Part shown: positions 3,355 through 62,291 of the stretch, piece after piece | Layout of the letters: every line of letters begins with the position of its first letter | Position numbering within the stretch: the first letter of the stretch is position 1 | Source: Hexactinellida sp. DTS-2022 | Lineage: Eukaryota > Porifera > Hexactinellida | NCBI GenBank assembly: GCA_028753945.1 | Contig: JAPNXP010000006.1 | Span: 2,232,001 to 2,296,000, forward strand | Reading direction: 5' to 3' | Length of the DNA stretch: 64,000 nucleotides | Translations under genes and position numbers: made by a program | The notes under the pieces: generated by a model | What the model saw: only the letters and a program-made list of their open reading frames with translations | Database searches by the model: none | What the model was told of the DNA's origin: nothing

Positions 3355-4995
3355 ATGGCAGAGTTCCTAAATAGGGTTGTGCCGGGGATTGACTTTCCCC
3401 GGATCCCTCCTGAGCTATCTGGTCTGACTGTGATTGAACAGAGACTGGTATCTCCCAGACACGAGTTCATGAACATAAGATCTCTGGGCAGGGAGATACA
3501 GCACGGGCTGCATGGCACGGTTGTTAATGTTCCCAAAGACATAGATAAGACTGTTAATCAGTTACCTAGGACATTTCCACAGTCCCAAACCATTCAGTTA
3601 CAGTTGTTTCGTAAGTTATCGTTCGCAAAACCTTATTTATACGAAACGATAAGACCAAATGTAGTGTTAGAAGCATCTCGCTATCTCCTAATACTGAGCT
3701 CTTCAAGCTAGAGAAGGTAGTAGTTTCAAAGGATTGGATAAACTCTGTAACACGTACTGGTTCTGGTAATGTTAATTTATAGTTAATCCCAATGACAAGC
3801 CTTCTGATATAGTTATGGATGAAGAGGAACAGGATTCTGAGACTGTTCCTGGTATTGAGGATCTCTTCGATAAACTTGAGTTGTTGAAGGAGCTTGATGA
3901 TTGGGATGAGATCAAGGATGATTTCCCCATAAACCCTGTTCTTTAGACACATTGCTGCTGACTAATGAAAACTCTTAATGAAATTGGCTCCTGGAGAAGG
4001 GAGGAATCCTCAGTGCTTCTTATAGGATAAGTTTATAGAGGAACTAGCTTACCTTTGTGTGTTTGCTGGGCATTGCAGGCATTGCCTGAGGACTTGTATA
4101 TTCTCAAGAAATAAAGTCTGACATTTTGAGGTTAGATACTCAATACAAATATTCTAAATCTTTACAATTAATATTATGTTAATTGTTATAGTAACCAAGC
4201 ATTTTTAGCTAAATTCATATGTGTATCCATGGTCAAATGATATGCTTCTTGTAATTACTATCTTACTATAGTTTGTATGAGAAACCAAAGTCTACAGAGG
4301 ACAGGCTATAATAGTGTCTGATGTTCTCAATGACGACAATCTGGAGAGAATGGTTAAGGACGATGAGCCTTTTAAATTCATTAAGCAAGTCCGGTCTACT
4401 CTTGCATTCTGGCAACAGAAACAGAGAGAGCTGATGTCGATGATAAGTCAGCTGGATTGTCCCACATTATTTCTAACCCTGTCTGCTGCTGAGACTAAAT
4501 GGCTAGAGCTACTGAAGATACTGAAACATATCCTAGATGACGTTAAGCTGTCTGTTGAAGAGGTTCTGGAATTCCAGTGGAGTGAGAGAGCAGAACTGAA
4601 AAAGAGAGATTCTATCACTTGTGAAAGGCAATTTGATGTCTGCTCCAAGGAACTATTTAAGGTGCTTCGATCAGAGGTTAGTCCCCTTGGTAAATTGACT
4701 GATTTCTATTTGAGAATAGAATTTCAACAAAGATGGTCCCCACATGTGCATTAATTACTTTGGGTACAAGATGCCCCTAAGTATGGTCACAATCCGTTAC
4801 ATGAAGTAATATGATCAATTGATCGTACTATCTCATGTGAATTGCCAGATGAGACTAGTATACTAACTGAGGATGATATTAAGTTACAGAGACATAGGCA
4901 CACAAATACGTATTATAAAAAAAAGCCGTTTCGGCGAAGTAGTTTGGTAACCGTACCCTCCAATGGTATCAATTAAAATTCTAGAACCATTCAAA
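3355..4995 (+). pseudogene. Helitron Rep protein, N-terminal part
   Basis: A first open stretch (3355-3711, 118 codons) matches the Helitron block with LTVIEQRLVSPR, then a nuclear-type NVVNVPKDIDKTV and NPxYETIRP-like end. The reading continues in other frames with an acidic segment at about 3800-3945. The 4314-4754 frame carries SMISQLDCPTLFLTLSAAET and ends in RIEFQQRWSPHVH, where HVH is the metal-binding HUH motif of rolling-circle Rep proteins; a TAA follows at once and LLWVQDAP continues in frame. A last piece reads LQRHRHT at about 4890-4910 and ILEPF at about 4980. Roughly 3950-4310 does not match and may be a small insertion. Single-stranded-DNA nicking was its job; it is no longer functional. 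Confidence 0.8.
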
Positions 4996-25832: not shown

Positions 25833-26537
25833 TTAATTCTTTTTTTCTAAAAGTTTCTGTTTTTTCAGTCGATAGTATTCCCTCTGCTCCTCTATTAAGG
25901 CTAATTGTGCTGAAAAAAACTCCATTTGTTTGCAGAGAACTTCTTGCTGTAGAGGAAGTAGATCAGAGGCTGATTTTTCGGCGCTCCTCTTACGTTTGCG
26001 GGTACGTATTCCAACAGCAGAACTATTGTTTACAAGAACTTCTGGTGCGTCGAGGATCATGGAACTTGATTCAATGACAAGTTCTTCAGGTAGGGAATTT
26101 GATGGTCCTTCGAACAAGTCTGTACTTCCCATAATTCCACTAAATGCTGGTATACCCAGTAGCATATCTGTTACCCTCTCCGTTGCAGTGGTTGACAAGT
26201 CTTTGTCAGCAGAAAGGATAAGTATAATCTCGTCACTTATCTCTCCAACTGCATTTGGTCCTCCTCCTGTCTGTCTTGATTCTCGACGACTACTATCGAC
26301 ATGAGACTTTGCAGCTCCCTTGAGATTATTCCATTTTTTCTTAAGGTCTTTAACATCTCTATTGTTTCCATGGATCGAGTTAACCTTTCCTACCATATCG
26401 GTCCACAGTGATTTCTTCTTCCTATTGAGGTCAGCACAGTGCCCAGTACCTCTGAGTAAATCACCAGCGGATTGAATCGCGTCGATGAGTGTATACTCTT
26501 CCTCTTTGGACCAGTAACTTTTTCGAGGTTTTTCCAT
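25833..26537 (-). CDS. Harbinger Myb/SANT-like DNA-binding protein
   Basis: 234 codons, uninterrupted. Residues about 8-80 form a Myb/SANT-like three-helix domain with the spaced tryptophans and basic patch (YWSKEEEYTLIDAI, KSLWTDMVGKVN, DLKKKWNNLKGAAKSH). The middle is acidic and serine-rich, RTRKRKR (about 178-184) looks like a nuclear signal, and the last 40 residues (QQEVLCKQMEFFSAQLALIE) are predicted coiled coil. In active PIF/Harbinger elements this second protein brings the transposase into the nucleus and to the transposon ends. It starts at ATG 26537 and ends just inside the element's left end. Open frame suggests the element died recently, since only the transposase shows breaks. 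Confidence 0.85.
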   Translation of the reverse strand: MEKPRKSYWSKEEEYTLIDAIQSAGDLLRGTGHCADLNRKKKSLWTDMVGKVNSIHGNNRDVKDLKKKWNNLKGAAKSHVDSSRRESRQTGGGPNAVGEISDEIILILSADKDLSTTATERVTDMLLGIPAFSGIMGSTDLFEGPSNSLPEELVIESSSMILDAPEVLVNNSSAVGIRTRKRKRSAEKSASDLLPLQQEVLCKQMEFFSAQLALIEEQREYYRLKKQKLLEKKN

Positions 26538-26989
26538 TTTCTTTAGCTGAAATTCAAATAATCACTTTAATTTAGACTTTTGCAATAACAACAGCCGATG
26601 CAATTGTACTCGACGATATTTCTCAAGCACGAAAATCGCAGGAACTTCAAAGAGAATATTCTTTTTACAGTTAAAAGAATAAAGCAAGCTAATATAATAG
26701 CATTCCATACACTAATATGCTATGCTATTCATCCCATGTTGCATTACATCCCTAACTTAATTTAAATGCGTTTAGACTCTAGAGTCACCTCGGGACAGGG
26801 TTAATTTGACTCAATTAAACGGTGAAATCTATTAACAGTTGCTCTATTAAGCGGATAATACTGTATTAACAATATACAATACTGTTATTGAAATATTAGC
26901 TGAAATTATGAATGGAGAATTGATCTCGATAATGTTTGGCAGCCATATGGCCAGTATCCTCAACCTCAAACAGCTCACTCGGATCAGTT

Positions 26990-27900
26990 ACATTGGGAAT
27001 TCGTCATCTAATAGAGGTTGTTTCCACATAATTGCCATATTATGCAATACTGCACAAGCAACTATTATCATGCATACTTTATCTGGAGACATCCGAAGTT
27101 CGCCATGAAGACAATGAAATCTACGTTTCCATCTTCCAAATGTTTGCTCAATTATAACACGTGTTTTCTTATGACCATAGTTATAATTGGATTGGGGAGT
27201 CGAGGATGGTTGTCGAGGGTGTTAGTAAGTAGGGCTTTAGCATGTAACCACTATCCCCTAATATGTGCTCCCCGATTAATAAGTTGTTTTCAACATATAT
27301 TCCAGCCCGAGAAAGCTTCCAAATGCGAGAATCGTGAACAGATCCAGGAAAACGAGCCAACACATCACTAATTATACCATCCGATCGACATATAACTTGG
27401 ACATTAATTGAGTGGAAAAATGTCGGTTCACGTAATCTGCTTCATTTTCAGATGGTTTTTGAATGCGTATATGTGTCCCGTCAACTAGTCCAAGGACGCC
27501 TGGAAAATGAGCAATTTCGTAAAATTTGTTCTTGACAACTGCCTTCTCAGCTGAGCTTGGCATACTAACATACTGGTTGTATATATCCTGAAAACCTTGT
27601 GAAACATCATGAATATAGCGAGAAGCTGAAGACTGGCTTACATTAACTCCATCTCCACAGATTATCTGGAACGCTCCAGAAGCAAAAAACTGAAGTGCAA
27701 CACAAACCTGTAAATGTAGGGGAGCGGCATGGGAGCGATCTGTAAAGTTTAAACGATGAGCTATAAACTCAGTGATTCTTGAAATTGATGATCTAGAGAA
27801 GCGGAAACGTTGAACAAGTTCCAAATCATCATAACAATCTAAGGGATCAGTAATATCCCTAAAATTCTTGGACGTGCCATAGATGAAGAGTTTTCTTCTT
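26990..27900 (-). pseudogene. PIF/Harbinger DDE transposase, frameshifted
   Basis: The N-terminal part (27372-27824) shows RFRFSRSSISRITEFIAHRL and FFASGAFQIICGD, then FPGVLGLVDGTHIRIQKPSE with the first catalytic D. A one-base shift near 27420 leads to LARFPGSVHDSRIWKLSRAG (second D in HDSRIW) and HILGDSGYMLKPYLLTP. A second shift near 27185 leads to KKTRVIIEQTFGRWKRRFHC with the catalytic E at 27147-27149, and the end PLLDDEF near 26995. The DDE set and the GDSGY motif are those of the DDE_Tnp_4 (Harbinger) family. Two frameshifts make it non-functional as it stands. Confidence 0.85.
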
Positions 27901-28804
27901 CTTCTGCTAGAAATAGAGGAATCATTTGTGTCATTTGTAAGAATTTTGTGAAATTGAATGAATCAGATTTAAATCACAGATATATACTTAATTACGTAAT
28001 CAGGTATCAAACAATTGATGGATTTATGGTTACTTGGAATGTTAATTTAACGTTAAAATGCAAGATACAAAATTCAAAATAATAATTAAGTTCTCTATTT
28101 GAATAAAGAAAATACCATGCAATCCTTTGCAACTAACATTTGTGTAATTAAGTTCTCTATTTGAATAAATAATAATGCATGCATTCGTTTGCAACTAGCA
28201 ATTGTGTAGTGAAAAATATTCACCAACATGCTGAAACCTATTTTAGTGTGCTTCTTCTAGTAAAACCGTTATAGTAGGGTCCTACTATAGTTTTATACTA
28301 TAAGTGAATTGAATTCGTTCTGATAGAGTTCCGTCCGGCCGGAAAAAAATATAGGAAAAAAAAAAATTGAGGTTGTATTCTCCTAAGGATGTTCTTTCTA
28401 TATAGCAATTAAAATGAATAGGTCGCTAATCAATTCTCCGTTTTATTAACGGTTTTCTTTTACGGAAATCAGCCATCTTCTCCATATTGTATTGTACTCT
28501 TATGGTAGACTGAATACTATAGAATATACAGTATTACATAACAATACTGCTCTATAATGACTGTTATTGATTGGTTATAGCTACAAAGTGAATTTGTGTT
28601 TCATACAATTGAAATAAAAACACTTGGACAGTTGATTGATTATGTCAATTCTACTATTCAAAATAATAAAGTAAATACTTCACTAAGATAAAATGTAATT
28701 TAAATATTGAATTATCAATACTACGTTGAATATTACGTAAAGTCAATTCCAAAAGAATGAACAGTGTACTATAAATATAATTGAATAAATATAAAGATAA
28801 TTTC
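27901..28804. other. 5' non-coding part of the Harbinger element
   Basis: AT-rich, no open frame of note. A direct repeat GTAATTAAGTTCTCTATTTG occurs near 28083 and 28145. Confidence 0.45.
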
Positions 28805-40902: not shown

Positions 40903-41993
40903 CACTATGGTCACTCGTGACCTTCGATATATAAGGCCTGAGTGCTAAGCGAAAATTTGTGTACCATGGATTACTTAAAGTGCATTGAAAAATGGAGAAT
41001 TGTTCTTTATCCCAATAATTAGCAATGATAGAGCTGAAAAGTGTATTATAACTATATAGGAATATGGTACCCAGGTATACATAGCACTCTCCAGAATTGT
41101 GATATGTCATCATCTGATGACGTAATGGTAATTTTGGTTGCGAATTATCTTGTTTTTCTAGCATACTTTTAACATAGTTAAACGCGTTATAAATGTTCAA
41201 AATTGGAACATGGTTATACCCATAACTAGTTGAAAAAAATATATCGAAATTATAAATGGAATGTTGACACATTCCTCGGTTGCCATGGAAATGTATATTT
41301 CCTAAAATGTGTCATAACTCAAAAACTATGAATGTTATGTAAACTAGGCTGGTACTGATCTGTCCGGAATAGGTAACTTCCTATTCATTGATAATACATT
41401 TTATATGCCTAACTTCAATCATCTTTGAGATCATGACATAATTAACACTTAATTCATTATTAGGTAATGACTCACTATCTCAAAGATGATTGAAGTTAGG
41501 CATATAAAATGTATTATCAATGAATAGGAAGTTACCTATTCCGGACAGATCAGTACCAGCCTAGTTTACATAACATTCATAGTTTTTGAGTTATGACACA
41601 TTTTAGGAAATATACATTTCCATGGCAACCGAGGAATGTGTCAACATTCCATTTATAATTTCGATATATTTTTTTCAACTAGTTATGGGTATAACCATGT
41701 TCCAATTTTGAACATTTATAACGCGTTTAACTATGTTAAAAGTATGCTAGAAAAACAAGATAATTCGCAACCAAAATTACCATTACGTCATCAGATGATG
41801 ACATATCACAATTCTGGAGAGTGCTATGTATACCTGGGTACCATATTCCTATATAGTTATAATACACTTTTCAGCTCTATCATTGCTAATTATTGGGATA
41901 AAGAACAATTCTCCATTTTTCAATGCACTTTAAGTAATCCATGGTTCAAACCAGCACTCAGGCCTTATATATCGAAGGTCACGGGTCACTATA
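40903..41993. repeat. Near-perfect palindrome, arms about 520 bp, 45-bp spacer
   Basis: Arms 40903-41431 and 41477-41993 are inverted copies with very few differences. Because of this, one and the same amino-acid sequence (MCQHSIYNFDIFFSTSYGYN...) reads outward on both strands (41272 leftward, 41636 rightward); it has no recognisable domain and is likely incidental. A non-palindromic relative of the right arm occurs at 52175-52890, and the outer left flank (40440-40520) has a relative at 51350-51450. Confidence 0.9.
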
Positions 41994-42224
41994 GTAACCA
42001 GTAGCACATCTGGGAGCAGAAAAAGAGTTGGGCATTAGTTCAGGATATAAATAAACAAGGAACTAGCATTATAAAGGCAAAGTATGATGGAATTAAAGAG
42101 AATTTGTAATTAGAATAGCTAATATTTACAGACGAATCTCGTTAACTATTTTTCTAAACCAGATAAGCATTTGTAGTTTTAATAAAAATTTAAATATTTA
42201 CATTATGGGTATGTCATTGCCCCG

Positions 42225-42395
42225 AAATTATGGAATTCAGTCCCCAAAGATATTAGAATGAGTGGATCAGTTGATATTTTTAAGAGACAATTAAAGACCT
42301 TTCTATTCGGAATTAATGAAGATGCCTTGTGGTTAAGTTAGCTGAGATGTATTAATATTCTAATTTTTCATTGTCATCTGTTCGCACTCTTAGTC
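42225..42395 (+). pseudogene. LINE reverse-transcriptase gene, last 38 codons plus 3' UTR
   Basis: KLWNSVPKDIRMSGSVDIFK then RQLKTFLF, stop TAG at 42339-42341, is the characteristic C-terminal end of CR1/L2-type LINE ORF2 (compare NLWNTLPFDVRKSKSLTIFK near 62040 in this window). The 3' UTR is cut by the transposon at 42396 and resumes at 46021. Confidence 0.75.
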
Positions 42396-43075
42396 CACGG
42401 TTCGTTATTCTAGGTACGGAGGGTAATCTGTGCCGCGCAACTTTTGAGCTACTAAAAAGTTTGTAGCACATGACTTAAATAATTTCTGAAATTTTAGCCG
42501 ACGGGAAAAATCGTTTTCTTAACTTATGCCTCTTTGAAATTTTTTTGAATTTTTTCATATTTTTCTTGACAGTCACCCCATAAGCCTATTTATTGACATT
42601 TTGTGTAGATATTCTTGCTATTATGCCCTAAATCCATTTATAATTGACTTGTATTAGATTTCTTTATAATATGGAGTGGGTGTGTTAGGTAGTTCTAAAC
42701 CTTTGGCTGAATAACTATAAGGTGATCACCGGTGCCATTCTCAGAGCCCCCCCTACTTCAGAACTAAATTATGAACACTTATGCATCTCCCATTGGGTTA
42801 CTACTTACTAACCAGTTAGTACATATATCAATGTAATTTTATATATATATAACTATTAGAAATGGATACTGCTTAACAGTCCTTAAACTAACTAATTGTC
42901 AGGAAGCAATACTAAATATTTCTTCCTATATTTGATAAATATACAATTATAGACAAAATTACAACTATTTCATTTACACGTACATAATAATACTCTAAGT
43001 CTAAGTTATTTCTCATCTATAAATTACTTTGGAAGAAACCAAAATGCAAGCTATTGTACTTAACAACTGAGCGTA
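42396..43075. repeat. Left TIR of the Chapaev-like transposon
   Basis: 680 bp; complement of 45339-46020. The inner 59 bases (43017-43075) contain the last codons and stop of the transposase gene. Confidence 0.95.
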
Positions 43076-45146
43076 GAAGTCTATGTTTACCAACGAATAA
43101 ACCGAAGGATTTATTGAAACTATGGTGACAACTTTCAAGAACTTGTTCTGAAAAATATCCAAGCCCCAATTGTTTTTGATGTTCGTGAAACTCGTTAATT
43201 TTAATCAGGTATTTTTCCAAGTGATCCAACAGAAAGTGAATTTTAGGTGTTGGTCTAGTGATCTCCATAACATGCTGAAGTGCCTTTTCAATTTCTTTGT
43301 CTATAGTAGCCCTACTAGCTACATTATCTTTCATAACTTGCTCAATTGCTATTTCTTTAAAAGTTTCCCGCATTTTTTGGTACGCATCTTTAAAGTTAGA
43401 AATGCTGCTTTGCCAACCTTCTTTCAGTTCTCTCCCAAAGATTTTATGAACAAGTATGGAGGCGCACTGTAAAACTGGTACAATTGGTCGTATACCTTGG
43501 AATTTTTGGAGGTCAATTAGATTTGCATTGTCAAGGAGTTTTAGACTAGCACTTCCTGTATAACTTCCACCGTGATATTGTTGAGGTGGACCTGCAACTG
43601 GCTCTATCCACTCAAGTTGTAGGTTTCTGAAATCCAGAGGGCCCAAAATCTTCCCTGCTAACCTATCAATGAGTTTTTCTCTTAGTCCTAATTGAGCGTG
43701 TACTGCAGCGATCGGAAATGATAATGCTGGATTTTGAAAATGTAAGAGGGGAAGTGCTTCAACACCATAGCATTCTTTTGCATGATTTGGATTACCTTGA
43801 TACTCACACTGCAGTTTTTCCCACATTTTCTCGAAATGAATGCCTGATCTAGGGAATCCCGTTTCTTCAGTTGTTCTCGAGTAAGTACAGTAAGGACATG
43901 GGTATTTTGCAGCACCTCCACGTAAACCACAAATCATGCTTATGACCTTTAGATCAGATGTAAGCGTTGTCTTGGGATCAGTTAGATCAAGAGTCGGAAA
44001 TAACTTAAAAAATTTCCTTAAGTTTTCCCTTGTTTCAGGAGCATTTGTAACAGCGACTAAAAGGCAACCCTTAACACTGTCAATATAATCTAAATTATAC
44101 GTCAGTTGTAGCACAACTTTGAGAAACCCTTTTCCATGATCTACACCCCAACGGTAATACTCTGTATTGATCAGACGTTTACCTTCAGTCCTTCGAATAA
44201 GCTCGGGTATATCATTGCAATAAACAATCTCGGTCTCCTTTTCTATGTATTTCTCATCTTCTTCGTGTAATTTGGCTCGATGTTGCAGAAATATTTGATT
44301 TTCTGTGAAAAGGTCTCCAATTTCGATTTTAAGAGCATTCAGGGCGCTACGAGGATTAGGTGTCATGAGGCCGTGATTATTCATCCATTTACAAATTTTG
44401 TTCAAACCATTATCAGATATAGCAAGATCGATCTTCAACTGAATAGTATCTTCGGTACTTACTGATGGGTTGGCAGGTAAGCTACCGTAACGTCCATTCA
44501 ATAGCCTAACTTTAAGCGAATCTACTTCAACTTCTGGTGATTTTGTATTACTCGCAAGTTTTCTTAGAATATTGGCCACTACTTCGTTAGTAATTCCCTT
44601 CCTTTCCAACATTTCAACAGCATTCTGAATTGATTGCTGCCTATTGCACTCATGAGCAACTGGTTGGGTGCTTAAGCATTTTGAACACTTTGCAGGAGTG
44701 CTGTGATTCTTGAAGTAAGTAAACTTTGAAGATTCATCATCTGAATAAGATATTTGGTCTATTACTTCGGAGGATTTCGAGTCACAGGAATCTTTTATTA
44801 ACTGATTAACTCCACGACACCCACGATATATTTCGCAAACTAAACAATTTTCAGAGTCATGAGTACGTGTTACACGACGAGAGTTATCACCAGTTCCTAG
44901 AATACCAAGTTTAGGGGGTTTGAACACCTTGGGGTTATCAATATGTCGATGTAATGATGAAGCACATCCTTTGCATATCCGAGTTGGGTAATATGATTGA
45001 GATTGTTCCTCTATTACGTCAATACAGTAAACATTATGTAACCATTGTTGGCGGTCTTGATTGATTGGTCTTAGATTTTCAGATTTTTGCTTTTTACAAC
45101 AAACACGACAAATATGTCCTGTAGCTTTTAAATGGTACTCACTCAT
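43017..45146 (-). CDS. Transposase with RAG1-type N-terminal zinc region
   Basis: 709 codons, no breaks; ATG at 45146. Residues 11-112 hold C13-x2-C16, C41, C58-x2-C61 with H66/H68, and H96-x4-C101-x2-C104 followed by RGCRG. The order CRVC...YPTRICKGCASSLHR...HDSENCLVC is that of the N-terminal zinc region of RAG1 and of the N-RAG transposons I recall from molluscs. A second small CxxC-HxC site is at 154-167. The catalytic part probably uses D336 (YRWGVDHGKG), D398 (LTSDLKVISM, next to C417-P-Y-C420) and E667 or E671 (GYFSEQVLESCHHSF); HGGSYTGSASLKLLDN (525-540) is a further conserved block. The residue roles are my inference from block order. The last 19 codons lie inside the TIR. Expected job: nuclear cut-and-paste transposition of its own ends. 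Confidence 0.85.
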   Translation of the reverse strand: MSEYHLKATGHICRVCCKKQKSENLRPINQDRQQWLHNVYCIDVIEEQSQSYYPTRICKGCASSLHRHIDNPKVFKPPKLGILGTGDNSRRVTRTHDSENCLVCEIYRGCRGVNQLIKDSCDSKSSEVIDQISYSDDESSKFTYFKNHSTPAKCSKCLSTQPVAHECNRQQSIQNAVEMLERKGITNEVVANILRKLASNTKSPEVEVDSLKVRLLNGRYGSLPANPSVSTEDTIQLKIDLAISDNGLNKICKWMNNHGLMTPNPRSALNALKIEIGDLFTENQIFLQHRAKLHEEDEKYIEKETEIVYCNDIPELIRRTEGKRLINTEYYRWGVDHGKGFLKVVLQLTYNLDYIDSVKGCLLVAVTNAPETRENLRKFFKLFPTLDLTDPKTTLTSDLKVISMICGLRGGAAKYPCPYCTYSRTTEETGFPRSGIHFEKMWEKLQCEYQGNPNHAKECYGVEALPLLHFQNPALSFPIAAVHAQLGLREKLIDRLAGKILGPLDFRNLQLEWIEPVAGPPQQYHGGSYTGSASLKLLDNANLIDLQKFQGIRPIVPVLQCASILVHKIFGRELKEGWQSSISNFKDAYQKMRETFKEIAIEQVMKDNVASRATIDKEIEKALQHVMEITRPTPKIHFLLDHLEKYLIKINEFHEHQKQLGLGYFSEQVLESCHHSFNKSFGLFVGKHRLLRSVVKYNSLHFGFFQSNL

Positions 45147-45338
45147 AATATCGAAATATTGATATTTTGGAAATAGATTAGGAATATAATCTCACGGTTA
45201 TCAAAAAAAGTGAAATGTGATAATAGATAGAAGCGTTTCAGTATATATTGAATATATACAATGCATAGTATATTACATTTCTCAAAAAGCATAGGTAAAA
45301 TAGCTAGGTCTTCAATTTCATGGTAAATTAACATTTTG

Positions 45339-46020
45339 TACGCTCAGTTGTTAAGTACAATAGCTTGCATTTTGGTTTCTTCCAAAGTAATTTATAGATG
45401 AGACATAACTTAGACTTAGAGTATTATTATGTACGTGTAAATGAAATAGTTGTAATTTTGTCTATAATTTTATATTTATCAAATATAGGAAGAAATATTT
45501 AGTATTGCTTCCTGACAATTAGTTAGTTTAAGGACTGTTAAGCAGTATCCATTTCTAATAGTTATATATATATAAAATTACATTGATATATGTACTAACT
45601 GGTTAGTAAGTAGTAACCCAATGGGAGATGCATAAGTGTTCATAATTTAGTTCTGAAGTAGGGGGGGGGCTCTGAGAATGGCACCGGTGATCACCTTATA
45701 GTTATTCAGCCAAAGGTTTAGAACTACCTAACACACCCACTCCATATTATAAAGAAATCTAATACAAGTCAATTATAAATGGATTTAGGGCATAATAGCA
45801 AGAATATCTACACAAAATGTCAATAAATAGGCTTATGGGGTGACTGTCAAGAAAAATATGAAAAAATTCAAAAAAATTTCAAAGAGGCATAAGTTAAGAA
45901 AACGATTTTTCCCGTCGGCTAAAATTTCAGAAATTATTTAAGTCATGTGCTACAAACTTTTTAGTAGCTCAAAAGTTGCGCGGCACAGATTACCCTCCGT
46001 ACCTAGAATAACGAACCGTG
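45339..46020. repeat. Right TIR of the Chapaev-like transposon
   Basis: 682 bp; includes a reverse copy of the end of the transposase gene (45339-45398) that is not connected to any gene here. Confidence 0.95.
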
Positions 46021-46183
46021 AGTCCAATAGTTAATGTACTTTACACCCCTGAACTTAATCTTATTACTGAATATATTCTGAATCTTTTTATTTATTTTTA
46101 TTTATTTTCATGTACAAAATTGTAAGCGCATTGAGACATTTGTATAATGCGCAAACAAATGATGTATTATTATTATTATTATA
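46021..46183 (+). repeat. LINE 3' UTR and (ATT)n tail, continued
   Basis: After the transposon the LINE 3' end goes on: TTGTAAGCGCATTGAGACAT, then ATAATGCGCAAACAAATGAT and an ATT microsatellite tail (46160-46183). The GCGCATTGAGACA block before an (ATT)n tail is typical of invertebrate LINE 3' ends. Confidence 0.7.
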
Positions 46184-46184
46184 T

Positions 46185-46285
46185 AAGAAAATCGCCTTCA
46201 TCTTATCCCTGGTCCAGGCGCATTTGGCTCAGTGAAATGGCCTTATGTTTAGTAGGCTATGAATAAACCTAAATTTATCTTCCTA
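46185..46285. repeat. Inverted partner of 39105-39200
   Basis: CTTATCCCTGGTCCAGGCGC, CAGTGAAATGGCCTTATG and GTAGGCTATGAATAAACC are the complement of the block at 39105-39200. Confidence 0.55.
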
Positions 46286-46499: not shown

Positions 46500-46945
46500 A
46501 TGATGTATCGGTGCGCATGCTTTTGTCCGAATTTCTAGTATGCATTTGTCCGAAATTTTGGAGTATGCATTTGTCCGAATTTGTTGTATGCATTTGTCCG
46601 ACTGGAGTATGCATTTGTCCGAATTTTGTTGTATGTATTTGTCCGACAGAAGTAAGCATTTGCCATTGAGTTTTTATGGATCATTGATAAAACACTCGCA
46701 TTTCTAAGTGTGATTTTATGTTTTATTGTTAAAACGCACGCATTTCTAAGTGCGTATATATGATTTCGGGGGAAAGCGCGCCCTTTTTTTTTCTAAGTGT
46801 CTTAGTGACAAAATATCATATGAATGACAAAAGCTTACATCAATGTAAATTCGGACAAATGCATACGTCAGTCGGACAGATACATACTTCAAAATTCGGA
46901 CAAATGAATACTACAAAATTCGGACAAATGCAGCTTCCCCGATGT
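46500..46945. repeat. Two inverted arrays of GTATGCATTTGTCCGAATTT
   Basis: Left array (46515-46660): five to six copies of GCATTTGTCCGAATTT(TG). Right array (46848-46935): four copies of the complement AAATTCGGACAAATGCATAC. The spacer holds a 60-base direct repeat around CGCATTTCTAAGTG. A few more ATTCTGACAAATGC units occur at 56340-56440. A hairpin-forming MITE is likely. Confidence 0.75.
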
Positions 46946-47249
46946 ATCATATCTCTAGGACAGGGGCGTCAGGTTGACCAAAAAAGCGGGGGGGGCGTCA
47001 TAGGCGTCGACAATGCCGGGGCGGCCACTGTTCCGCCCCGGTTTATCCTAGAGTCTAGGATAATCTGAGATAATTTGTAGACTGGAATTGGCTGGTTATT
47101 CAAATTTTCATTTGTATCCAAGTGCAAAATTTTTGTAAGGAAAATTAATTAATACAGTAAATCAAACCTACCACAACTCGCTAAATCTAACCAACCCAGC
47201 AATAATTAATTGAATATTAATTGAAGTAGAGGAAATAGACAAAAAAAGC

Positions 47250-59559: not shown

Positions 59560-62291
59560 GTTAAAAACGTCTCACATGGGTTCAATTATGTTATGCACGG
59601 CGTATAGAGCACCATCTTTGTCGGGTTGTTCTTGGATTCAGAGATTTGAAGACATGTTAGAGGCAGTCTATCTCAAGGATTCAAAAGTAATAATTATTGG
59701 TGATTATAATTTTGACCTTTTAAATCCTGAATCTTTAGAAGTGAAAAGATGGATCAATCTACTATCCGTCACTTATAACTTTACGTCGCTAGTAAACTCT
59801 CCAACACGCATAACCAGGGATAGTCTATCTATTGTTGATCATTTGTTTGTATCACATCCTCATATTGTGAGTGCTGTGAACATTCCAAACATCGGCCTCA
59901 GCGACCACTACCCTGTACTTTTTTCCTTAAGCAAATCGAATATGAAAAGTAGTGGGCAGAAGACAATCACTTATCGTTGTTTCAAACTTTTTGTCCAAGA
60001 AGATTTTCTCAGGGATCTATTGGAGTTACCATGGATTACAATAGATATCTTCGACGAACCAGATGATGCGTTGGAATGCTGGTATACATATTTTACAAAT
60101 ATTCTTGATAAACATGCACCTATAAGAGAAAAGAGAGTAAAACATATTTATAAACCTGAATGGTTAACAGCTGATATTTCAAAGGCTATAGCTAAGCGAA
60201 ATGCTCTCAGAAAAGGGAATGAATTAGTCAATTACAGATTTTGGAGAAATAAAGTTTTGAGTTTAATAAGGATATCGAAAAGAACTTTTTACATGCGCGA
60301 GATTGAGAAGAATACAAGTGATACTAGGAAACTCTGGAAATTAATAAATGAAATTGCTCAAAAAAAAACCTTCACAAGTTCTACTATCCTGGAAGTGGGT
60401 CAAAATTTGATCACTGACAAGTATCAGATTGCGAATGCTTTTAATGATTTTTTTACTAACGTGGCATCAACAATCATAGATGGAAACATTACAATTGTGT
60501 CTAATTCATCTTTTAATAATATCGAATATCTTGTGTCATCCAAAATGGAAAACAATACAAGTTTCGAAATTCCTCCTCTAAACAAAAGTGAAGTTGCAAA
60601 ATTTTTATATGAGCTAAATGAAACAAAAGCTACTGGACCAGACTTTATCAGTCCTAGATTATTAAAGATTTCAGCAGATATTATAGCACCTTCTCTAACC
60701 AAAATATGTAATCTCTCTATTTCGAAAGGGATATTTCCAAAGAAATGGAAAGAGGCAAGTGTTATTCCTTTGCACAAGGGTGGGGACATTAAAAAATGTA
60801 ATAATTACAGGCCTATTTCTATCCTGTGTAGTATGTCTAAGATCCTAGAAAAGCATGTACATATCCACTTCTATTAATACTTAAACTCATATGGTCTCTT
60901 ATGTCCTGCTCAGTCAGGTTTTCGAAAATTTCACTCTTGTGAGACTTCTTTAACAAGTTTACTTGACAAATGGACAAATTCAATGGAAAACCGTCTCTTA
61001 AATGGAGTACTGATTGTTGACCTAAAGAAGGCTTTCGATTTGGTATCTCATGAAATTTTAATCCAGAAATTGAGACTTTATCGCTGTAGTATTCCGACTC
61101 TAAATTGGTTTAAGTCATATCTCACAGACCGTACCCAGAGAACAATCTTCAAAGGAACCAAATCCGACTCTAATTTTATTTCATCAGGAGTTCCTCAAGG
61201 TTCTATTTTAGGCCCCCTACTTTTCATCATATTTATCAATGATCTTCCGTCTATTATTAAATCCAATACAGAATTATATGCTGACGACACAACAATTTCA
61301 ACGCAAGGAGATTCCCTAGTAGAAGTTGAATCTAACTTACAAGAAGCGGCAAATAATCTCAGTAGATGGTGTAATGAAAATAAAATGGCCATAAATTGTA
61401 TTAAAACTATGGTGATGTTGGTTGCTACAAAAAAAAGACTATCACTTCTTCCAAGCACCAATTTGAATATAACAATAGACAACGTCACTATTAAAAATGT
61501 AAGCGTGTTCAAAATTCTTGGCGTAGCTATAGATAATAACCTTTCTTGGCAGAGTCATTCACACAATGTATATGCCTCTATCTGCAAAAATCTTGCTCTT
61601 TTGAAGAGAATTAGACATTTCCTACCTTTTCATACAAGGAAAGTTTACTATAATGCGCATGTATTATCTAAATTTGTGTATTGTATGTCAATCTGGGGAA
61701 ATTCGATTAATATAGAGCCGCTTTATAAACTACAAAAGCGAGCAGCCAGAATTATTCTAGACATAACAGATATAAGAACCCCTACAAAATGTATGTTTAA
61801 AAGGTTAAGCTGGCTCCCTCTTGAATATATAGTGAAAATACAAACTCTCAACCTAGTATACCGATCCCTAAACCACCTAACATCTGATAAATTACAAGAA
61901 ATGTTTAAATATATTTACAACGTGCAATCACGTACAAGATCAGCTAAGAAAGAATTATTGTATGTTCCTAATCGTGTTCGTCTTAAATGCAGGAGTAATT
62001 CCTTTATGTATCAGGGAGCAAATTTGTGGAACACTCTACCATTTGATGTCAGGAAATCAAAATCTTTAACTATATTTAAAAGACTGCTAAAGAACCTTTA
62101 CTATGAAATATATTTTAGTACTGAAACCAATTTTTGAACTTGAAACTCTGAACATTGTGTAAATATCCAATTGTAATTGTATTTGTATATAGCCTGTGTT
62201 GTGCTTTTGATTGTATGTATATATGTTGGACCGTATGGAAGAATAGCTTAATAGCTAAACACGTCATCCATTAAAGAATTAAAAAAAAAAA

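Follow-up and report, generated by a model that had tools for sequence, protein, structure and literature searches.

A Chapaev-type transposon of a hexactinellid sponge with a RAG1-like zinc head, possibly related to the insect ZAD, and a predicted RAG1/Transib-fold core

The window analysed here is a stretch of 64,000 nucleotides from Hexactinellida sp. DTS-2022 (contig JAPNXP010000006.1, positions 2,232,001 to 2,296,000 of the forward strand; positions below are those of the window), and it contains a DNA transposon with long terminal inverted repeats (TIRs) and an unbroken transposase gene. With high confidence we regard this element as a Chapaev-group DNA transposon that is autonomous, moves by cut and paste and was mobile recently; its transposase would combine a ZAD-like head, homologous to the N-terminus of RAG1, with a DDE core of the RAG1/Transib fold. 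The main idea is not new, since Chapaevs carrying a RAG1-type head were already published in 2015, when Kapitonov & Koonin (PMC4411706) named the Chapa domain, present in Chapaev, Chapaev3 and RAG1 and truncated in TransibSU. The element is a new specimen of this known kind of headed Chapaev.

Family assignment, catalytic core and origin of the head

Chapaev is placed in the Chapaev-Mirage-CACTA group (Kapitonov & Jurka 2007, cited via PMC4079192 and PMC4411706), and PMC4079192 describes its transposases by the motifs C(2)C and H(4)H with a DDE triad, and also by an LH motif. In the transposase of the window we found C417xxC420, H637x4H642 and D336/D398/E671. The termini of the element are CACGG...CCGTG, and termini of the type CAC...GTG were seen in 3/3 full-length copies as well as in both siblings with mapped ends, L041 and L042, which also have CACGG...CCGTG and whose target site duplications (TSDs), read from the flanks, are AACT and ATGT. 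The ends of two other siblings, L040 and L043, were not found within the stretches fetched. When the three copies are oriented alike, their TSDs are AGTC in the window, GTTT in L002 and TATT in L003, each duplicated perfectly. All these duplications, and the empty sites described below, agree with the 3- to 4-bp TSDs of Chapaev; they are neither the 3-bp TWA duplications that Chapaev3 makes (PMC4079192) nor of 5 bp, as in Transib (PMC8355894).

Further families of the same kind are present in the genome. The alignment A1 has 12 rows from three families (10 rows after the program's filter in the profile comparison), namely A (window, L002), B (L035, L037 in two pieces, L039, L044 in two pieces) and C (L040-L043). 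As a side observation, the start of the family-B Chapaev gene in L035 (970-1408) is repeated there in inverted orientation, 100% identical, at 3918-4356. Two results speak against the assignment to Chapaev: the LH motif reads VH in the window family (residues 482-483), and no Pfam family scored above its cut-off for the transposase. The Pfam family DUF1280 matched below threshold (E 1e-4). We keep the Chapaev label as probable, because the other features tested are present and the siblings that do bear LH (L035, L040, L041 and L042) align throughout. Judged by motifs, termini and TSD as described for Chapaev, the element is thus probably best called Chapaev, and not Chapaev3 or Transib, in agreement with the "Chapaev-like" of the original prediction, a note made from the sequence alone. 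Compared by description, not with named sequences, it shares with Chapaev transposons the CAC/GTG ends, the 4-bp TSD, the DDE core with C(2)C and H(4)H and the Chapa-type zinc head; it differs from them in its 680-bp TIRs, in VH for LH and in that no RING follows the head. A scan of viral contigs with the protein found no relatives of the transposase.

Regarding the catalytic core, A1 was compared with A3, an alignment of four Transib-like open reading frames (ORFs) of the same genome (L051, L053, L054 and L055). Against the PDB, A3 matches the transposase 6pqn (5e-47), which we take to be HzTransib, as well as the RAG1L 6b40 and RAG1. The hhalign comparison of A1 with A3 extended over 447 columns, with a probability of 96.8% and E 3e-10; both Asp motifs, the CxxC, the HxxxxH and the Glu motif are in register. 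In a rerun (E 1e-9) the whole scored 85 and the core alone 72, with control scores of at most 22 in 60 column shuffles and of 19 for the reversed profile. A full-length AlphaFold2 model built from A1 was then compared by Foldseek with 350,542 PDB chains. All 19 of the 19 matches at E<=0.001 came from RAG1/2 entries (6oeo_C and 18 other chains, the chain lengths fitting RAG1; best E 1.5e-10), and the P element came next at 7e-3. The quality of the model counts against this result, because its mean predicted local distance difference test score (pLDDT) is 55, with the core better than the head, which is mostly below 50, and the root-mean-square deviation from the RAG1 chains is 8.9-15.5 A at 10-13% identity. 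The TM-scores to these chains are modest, 0.31-0.48.

We conclude that the core, as modelled, belongs to the RAG1/Transib fold as a distant member, and profile alignment indicates that it is homologous to the Transib cores of the same genome. This would be a kinship of the core and not membership in Transib: the homologous DDE core and the zinc ligands are what the element has in common with L051, L053-L055 and 6pqn, whereas the TSD length differs. Comparison with Transib profiles and structure prediction of the core are among the checks proposed in the original prediction.

Pfam RAG1 has at least 68 matches in the genome, of which at least 15 are over the cut-off, both counts being lower bounds; the four ORFs of A3 were taken from among them. 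Pfam RAG2 gave no match in the genome, and the control genomes gave none either. We also observed that the Transib-like ORFs L053:165-2297 and L055:195-2414 have at their end a CxxCx3GHx(5 or 3)C knuckle, which closely resembles the Cx2Cx3GHx4C tail of RAG1L proteins (PMC7204232).

The origin of the non-core N-terminus of RAG1 is disputed, fusion with N-RAG-TP being set against inheritance from a common Chapaev/Transib ancestor. Panchin and Moroz are said to have described the N-RAG-TP of Aplysia in 2008. By description it resembles the head studied here in being a transposon-coded relative of the RAG1 N-terminus (PMC2996935, PMC8355894). In PMC4411706 it is proposed that head and core were fused in the common ancestor of Chapaev and Transib. 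The coexistence in this genome of headed Chapaevs and headless Transib-like ORFs, with cores that appear homologous, fits that view. Most simply, head and core would have descended together from an ancestor shared with RAG1, and the head would have been lost in this genome's Transibs.

An alternative, which we consider unlikely, is a swap. In this case RAG1 would have arisen by a later fusion of a Transib-type core with a zinc module of N-RAG type or from a Chapaev, and an N-RAG-TP fusion model is in print (PMC8355894). The Transib-like ORFs that were seen to their start (L053, L054 and L055; L051 is cut at the start) lack a Chapaev-type head, as a swap would have it, and the head profile against the Transib-like ORFs stays at noise level (score 22, E 0.06). 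Three stray head matches (C11:10377992, C11:10422735 and C7:1741535), which were opened as candidate coreless heads and rejected, are pieces of family-B Chapaevs; there are other weak head matches in the genome, for example C11:9985414 and C11:4056832. However, the cores of Chapaev and of Transib/RAG1 appear homologous, so that no fusion is needed if the ancestor had both parts, as argued in PMC4411706. Because the core is probably homologous too, common descent accounts for the data no less well than a swap does. Therefore, of the original claim that the RAG1 head was shared between transposase superfamilies, the RAG1-type head on a Chapaev stands, whereas a transfer between superfamilies does not follow, the core itself being probably a distant homologue of the Transib/RAG1 core.

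The zinc head, RAG1 and the ZAD domain

The cysteine order of the first 112 residues is the one that had been predicted (C13xxC16, C58xxC61, C101xxC104), and the predicted pattern H-x4-CxxC-x3-RG agrees, judged by eye, with HDSENCLVCEIYRG. In RAG1 the N-terminal zinc motifs are named C1, C2 and C3 (PMC7204232). We assign them here to C13/16, C58/61 and C101/104, a mapping that is our own, and between them we found similar residues, the stretches between the knuckles matching as IDV...YPTRICKGCASSLHR / IDV...HPTEFCHDCWSIMHR. In six heads from three families H5, C13, R14, C16, P54, C58, C61, C101, C104, P151, C154, K156, C157 and C167 are invariant. This list includes three members of a fourth zinc-type group that was absent from the original prediction: C154, C157 and C167 are invariant in 6/6 aligned heads and H165 is variable. 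After the head there is this one CxxC...HxC group only and not the RING/ZDD of RAG1. No RING family was listed in Pfam for the window protein or its head, and zf-RING_4 weakly matches 3/7 heads of the profile A4 (best E 0.057).

A blind search of 177,635 PDB sequences was made with the window head, the L040 head and the head profiles A2 and A4, of which A4 takes in 7 heads. The mouse RAG1 N-terminal domain 21wb came first with the window head (E 0.1, not significant alone) and with A2 (E 0.0044), and second with A4 (E 0.022). In BLASTP the window and mouse RAG1 heads have 24% identity, with E 2e-4 for one comparison. Their Smith-Waterman score of 65 was reached by 1/1000 and 0/500 shuffles of RAG1 with fixed cysteines, and it lies within the 41-74 that the window head scores against sibling heads from this genome. 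The score of the head profile against RAG1 was reached by 0/200 such shuffles.

A number of results weigh against homology with RAG1. The L040 head found no RAG1 in the PDB, only a BED finger (E 0.88), and neither the whole protein nor A1 found RAG1 among the PDB sequences. Moreover, hhalign of A2 with RAG1 gave only 16% probability (E 0.0016), the A4 score against RAG1 was reached by 1/200 shuffles, and among the single heads compared with mouse RAG1 only those of the window and L040 stand out, whereas L035, L039, L041 and L042 do not. Failure of 4/6 heads to beat shuffles with fixed cysteines is what one would expect if the resemblance were convergence, that is, unrelated zinc knuckles with similar CxxC spacing, and the marginal E value of the single sequence and the behaviour of Pfam RAG1_imp_bd, which missed the element's locus in the genome search and matched the window head at E 0.93 only, point the same way. 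Convergence nevertheless seems quite improbable to us, because the window head and the profile do beat these shuffles, the blind search ranks RAG1 first or second with the window head, A2 and A4 (not with the L040 head alone), and residues match between the knuckles as well. As judged from these comparisons, homology of the head with the RAG1 N-terminal zinc region is well supported but not beyond doubt, and the RAG1-type zinc head of the original prediction is upheld to the same degree. With vertebrate RAG1 the element would thus share the N-terminal C1-C2-C3 region (21wb) and the core fold (6oeo_C and the 18 other chains); it differs in the low identity already given, for the head and in the structural alignments, and in the lack of a recognisable RING/ZDD.

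Regarding selection, the ratio of nonsynonymous to synonymous substitution rates (dN/dS) of the sibling pair L041/L042 is about 0.16 for the head and 0.10 for the core, with dS near saturation; 2/3 family-C pairs were saturated. The head therefore appears to be under constraint in these siblings.

A further relative of the head may be the ZAD (zinc-finger associated domain), which in insects sits on C2H2 zinc-finger proteins and acts as a dimerization or targeting module. In the PDB searches insect ZADs appeared beside RAG1: 7po9 was second with the window head (E 0.19) and third with A4 (0.072), and 7pok was second with A2 (0.023) and first with A4 (0.02). In Pfam, the 68-residue window head matched zf-AD and no other family (E 0.0085; 16.8 bits, cut-off 28), and zf-AD was the second match of mouse RAG1 (E 0.0043, under the curated cut-off). 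An AlphaFold2 model of the head has a pLDDT of 71, and its top six Foldseek matches in the PDB are ZAD chains of M1BP, Pita and CG2712 (E 0.14-1.4, probability 0.30-0.84); 21wb was not among the matches, and AlphaFold2 may have learned ZAD structures. When A4 was aligned with single ZADs, the real score was reached by 0/200 shuffles for Pita, 3/200 for M1BP and 11/200 for CG2712, and the score of a profile of three ZADs against RAG1 was reached by 1/200.

It argues against a ZAD that zf-AD matches 2/7 heads at E<=1, fewer than the 3/7 of zf-RING_4, and that the mouse RAG1 head found no ZAD in the PDB at E<=10. Single RAG1-ZAD alignments are at noise level, neither the 170-residue window piece nor the whole protein had zf-AD among its listed Pfam matches, and the genome-wide zf-AD search did not find the element's locus.

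No value is significant alone, and the argument for a relationship of the head with the insect ZAD is the agreement of profile search, Pfam and model, which is suggestive. The likeness to the insect ZADs (Pita 7pok, M1BP 7po9, CG2712 6fp5) consists in C-R-x-C ... P-x-x-I-C-x-x-C and in the predicted fold of head residues about 10-70, whereas the bearer is a transposase here and not a C2H2 zinc-finger protein. Tentatively, and with slightly less than even confidence, we propose that C1-C2 of the RAG1 N-terminus, the Chapaev head and the insect transcription-factor dimerization domain are one ZAD domain, and that the element preserves in mobile form the complete RAG1-like plan of a ZAD head and a RAG1-fold core, within an animal that is not a typical bilaterian by crude markers. 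We found no literature joining ZAD with RAG1, in a search whose coverage mostly excludes subscription papers; as far as the searches show, the connection of ZAD with the RAG1/Chapaev head is unreported.

Copies and insertion site

The genome searched has 112,398,167 bases in 18 contigs. A search with the element found 3 full-length copies, at 99-100% identity and on two contigs, and pieces of decayed copies at 73-98% identity elsewhere in the genome. In L002, which lies on a contig other than the window's, the 709-codon ORF is intact as well. Over 3,627 aligned columns, this copy and that of the window are separated by 9 substitutions and 2 gap columns, and in the transposase gene 4 codons differ, 3 of them being amino-acid changes. 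The third full-length copy, L003, is frameshifted. The search for another copy with a different 4-bp duplication had been proposed as a check, and L002 is such a copy, as is L003; the description "potentially active" gains support from the two intact, near-identical copies.

In the window, the end-to-end alignment of the first 680 bases with the reverse complement of the last 680 has 678 identities, 2 mismatches and 2 gap positions. The terminal 31-bp sequence occurs exactly 2 times in the window, with 0 occurrences expected from shuffles. The coordinates of the element in the original prediction were exact, and its unbroken ORF and near-identical TIRs were borne out; the start with CAC was right, and AGTC was read on both sides outside the TIRs.

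The insertion point is the tail of a repeated LINE-like sequence (about 42200-42395 / 46025-46200). The joined flanks align uninterrupted at other places of the genome, with 43 matches listed, including the window's own 2 flanks. We fetched and aligned four of these places, and 4/4 are empty sites with a single AGTC at the junction; all 4 also have one extra T with respect to the window flank, seven bases further right, which does not affect AGTC. Because of these single AGTCs, the insertion of the element with a 4-bp duplication is demonstrated. It is hardly conceivable that the host has domesticated the intact ORF as a gene of its own or that the copies are an assembly artefact, because the 3 copies on two contigs have differing TSDs and flanks, empty sites exist, the third copy is mutated, and older pieces remain at 73-98% identity.

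Surroundings, proposed mechanism and meaning of the head

The features of the element are collected in Table 1.

Table 1. Features of the element in the window
Feature	Positions	Strand	Remarks
Whole element	42396..46020	.	3,625 bp; ends set by TSD and empty sites
Left TSD	42392..42395	.	AGTC
Right TSD	46021..46024	.	AGTC
Left TIR	42396..43075	+	680 bp, starts CACGG; covers the last ~19 codons and the stop of the transposase gene
Right TIR	45341..46020	-	680 bp
Transposase gene	43017..45146	-	709 codons without internal stop; near-identical intact ORF in L002
RAG1-type / Chapa head (putative)	44811..45146	-	Residues 1-112; C13xxC16, C58xxC61, C101xxC104
ZAD-like part of head (putative)	44946..45113	-	Residues 12-67; Pfam zf-AD and Foldseek
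Fourth zinc-type group	44646..44687	-	C154xxC157...H165xC167; absent from the original prediction
RAG1/Transib-fold DDE core (predicted)	43047..44489	-	About residues 220-700
D336, candidate first catalytic Asp	44139..44141	-	Aligned to the conserved Asp of Transib DGLDGSG
D398, candidate second catalytic Asp	43953..43955	-	C417xxC420 follows
E671, candidate catalytic Glu	43134..43136	-	In SEQVLES; H637x4H642 precedes

The window has a GC content of 35% and holds pieces of other mobile elements. Just left of the element lies a near-perfect palindrome (40904-41995), whose arms 40960-41436 / 41472-41948 of 477 nt are 99% complementary and 35 nt apart, with an additional outer pair of 43 nt and the same ORF fragment on both arms. 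Right of the element (46517-46952) repeats around ATGCATTTGTCCGAATTT are clustered on both strands. ORFs for an endonuclease and a reverse transcriptase of LINE type are found at 59561-62137, and a Helitron_like_N fragment at 4281-4751 (Pfam 2e-19). A Myb/SANT-like ORF in 25833-27962 (Pfam 2.5e-14) has beside it an ORF that resembles a Harbinger/PIF transposase by eye, with no Pfam match. In the genome as a whole the Wnt domain gave no match, and the control genomes gave none either; nuclear-receptor matches are few, 4, and 150 cadherin matches were scored in a search that also matched 1/14 control genomes, an archaeon. No Wnt match, few nuclear receptors and many cadherins make an unusual animal gene set. 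The cadherin and nuclear-receptor matches indicate an animal, nuclear receptors being specific to animals, and a small number of receptors together with no Wnt match might suit a sponge.

Regarding the mechanism, we propose that the transposase would bind the long TIRs, that D336, D398 and E671 would cut at the CAC ends, and that these ends would be joined to target DNA staggered by 4 bp, repair leaving the duplication. The C417xxC420 / H637x4H642 set may bind a structural zinc, by analogy with ZnC2/ZnH2 in RAG1. The head, itself presumably non-catalytic, is likely a dimerization or targeting module like the insect ZAD, being apparently constrained in siblings while Transibs manage without a head. 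Excision and hairpin formation, like the role of the head, we infer.

With intact headed Chapaevs beside headless Transib-like ORFs, the function and the loss of the head can be tested within a single genome. Should the ZAD link be real, the RAG1 head would gain a defined fold family and a predicted dimerization role, and a common domain would be suggested as the source for both RAG1 and the insect ZAD proteins.

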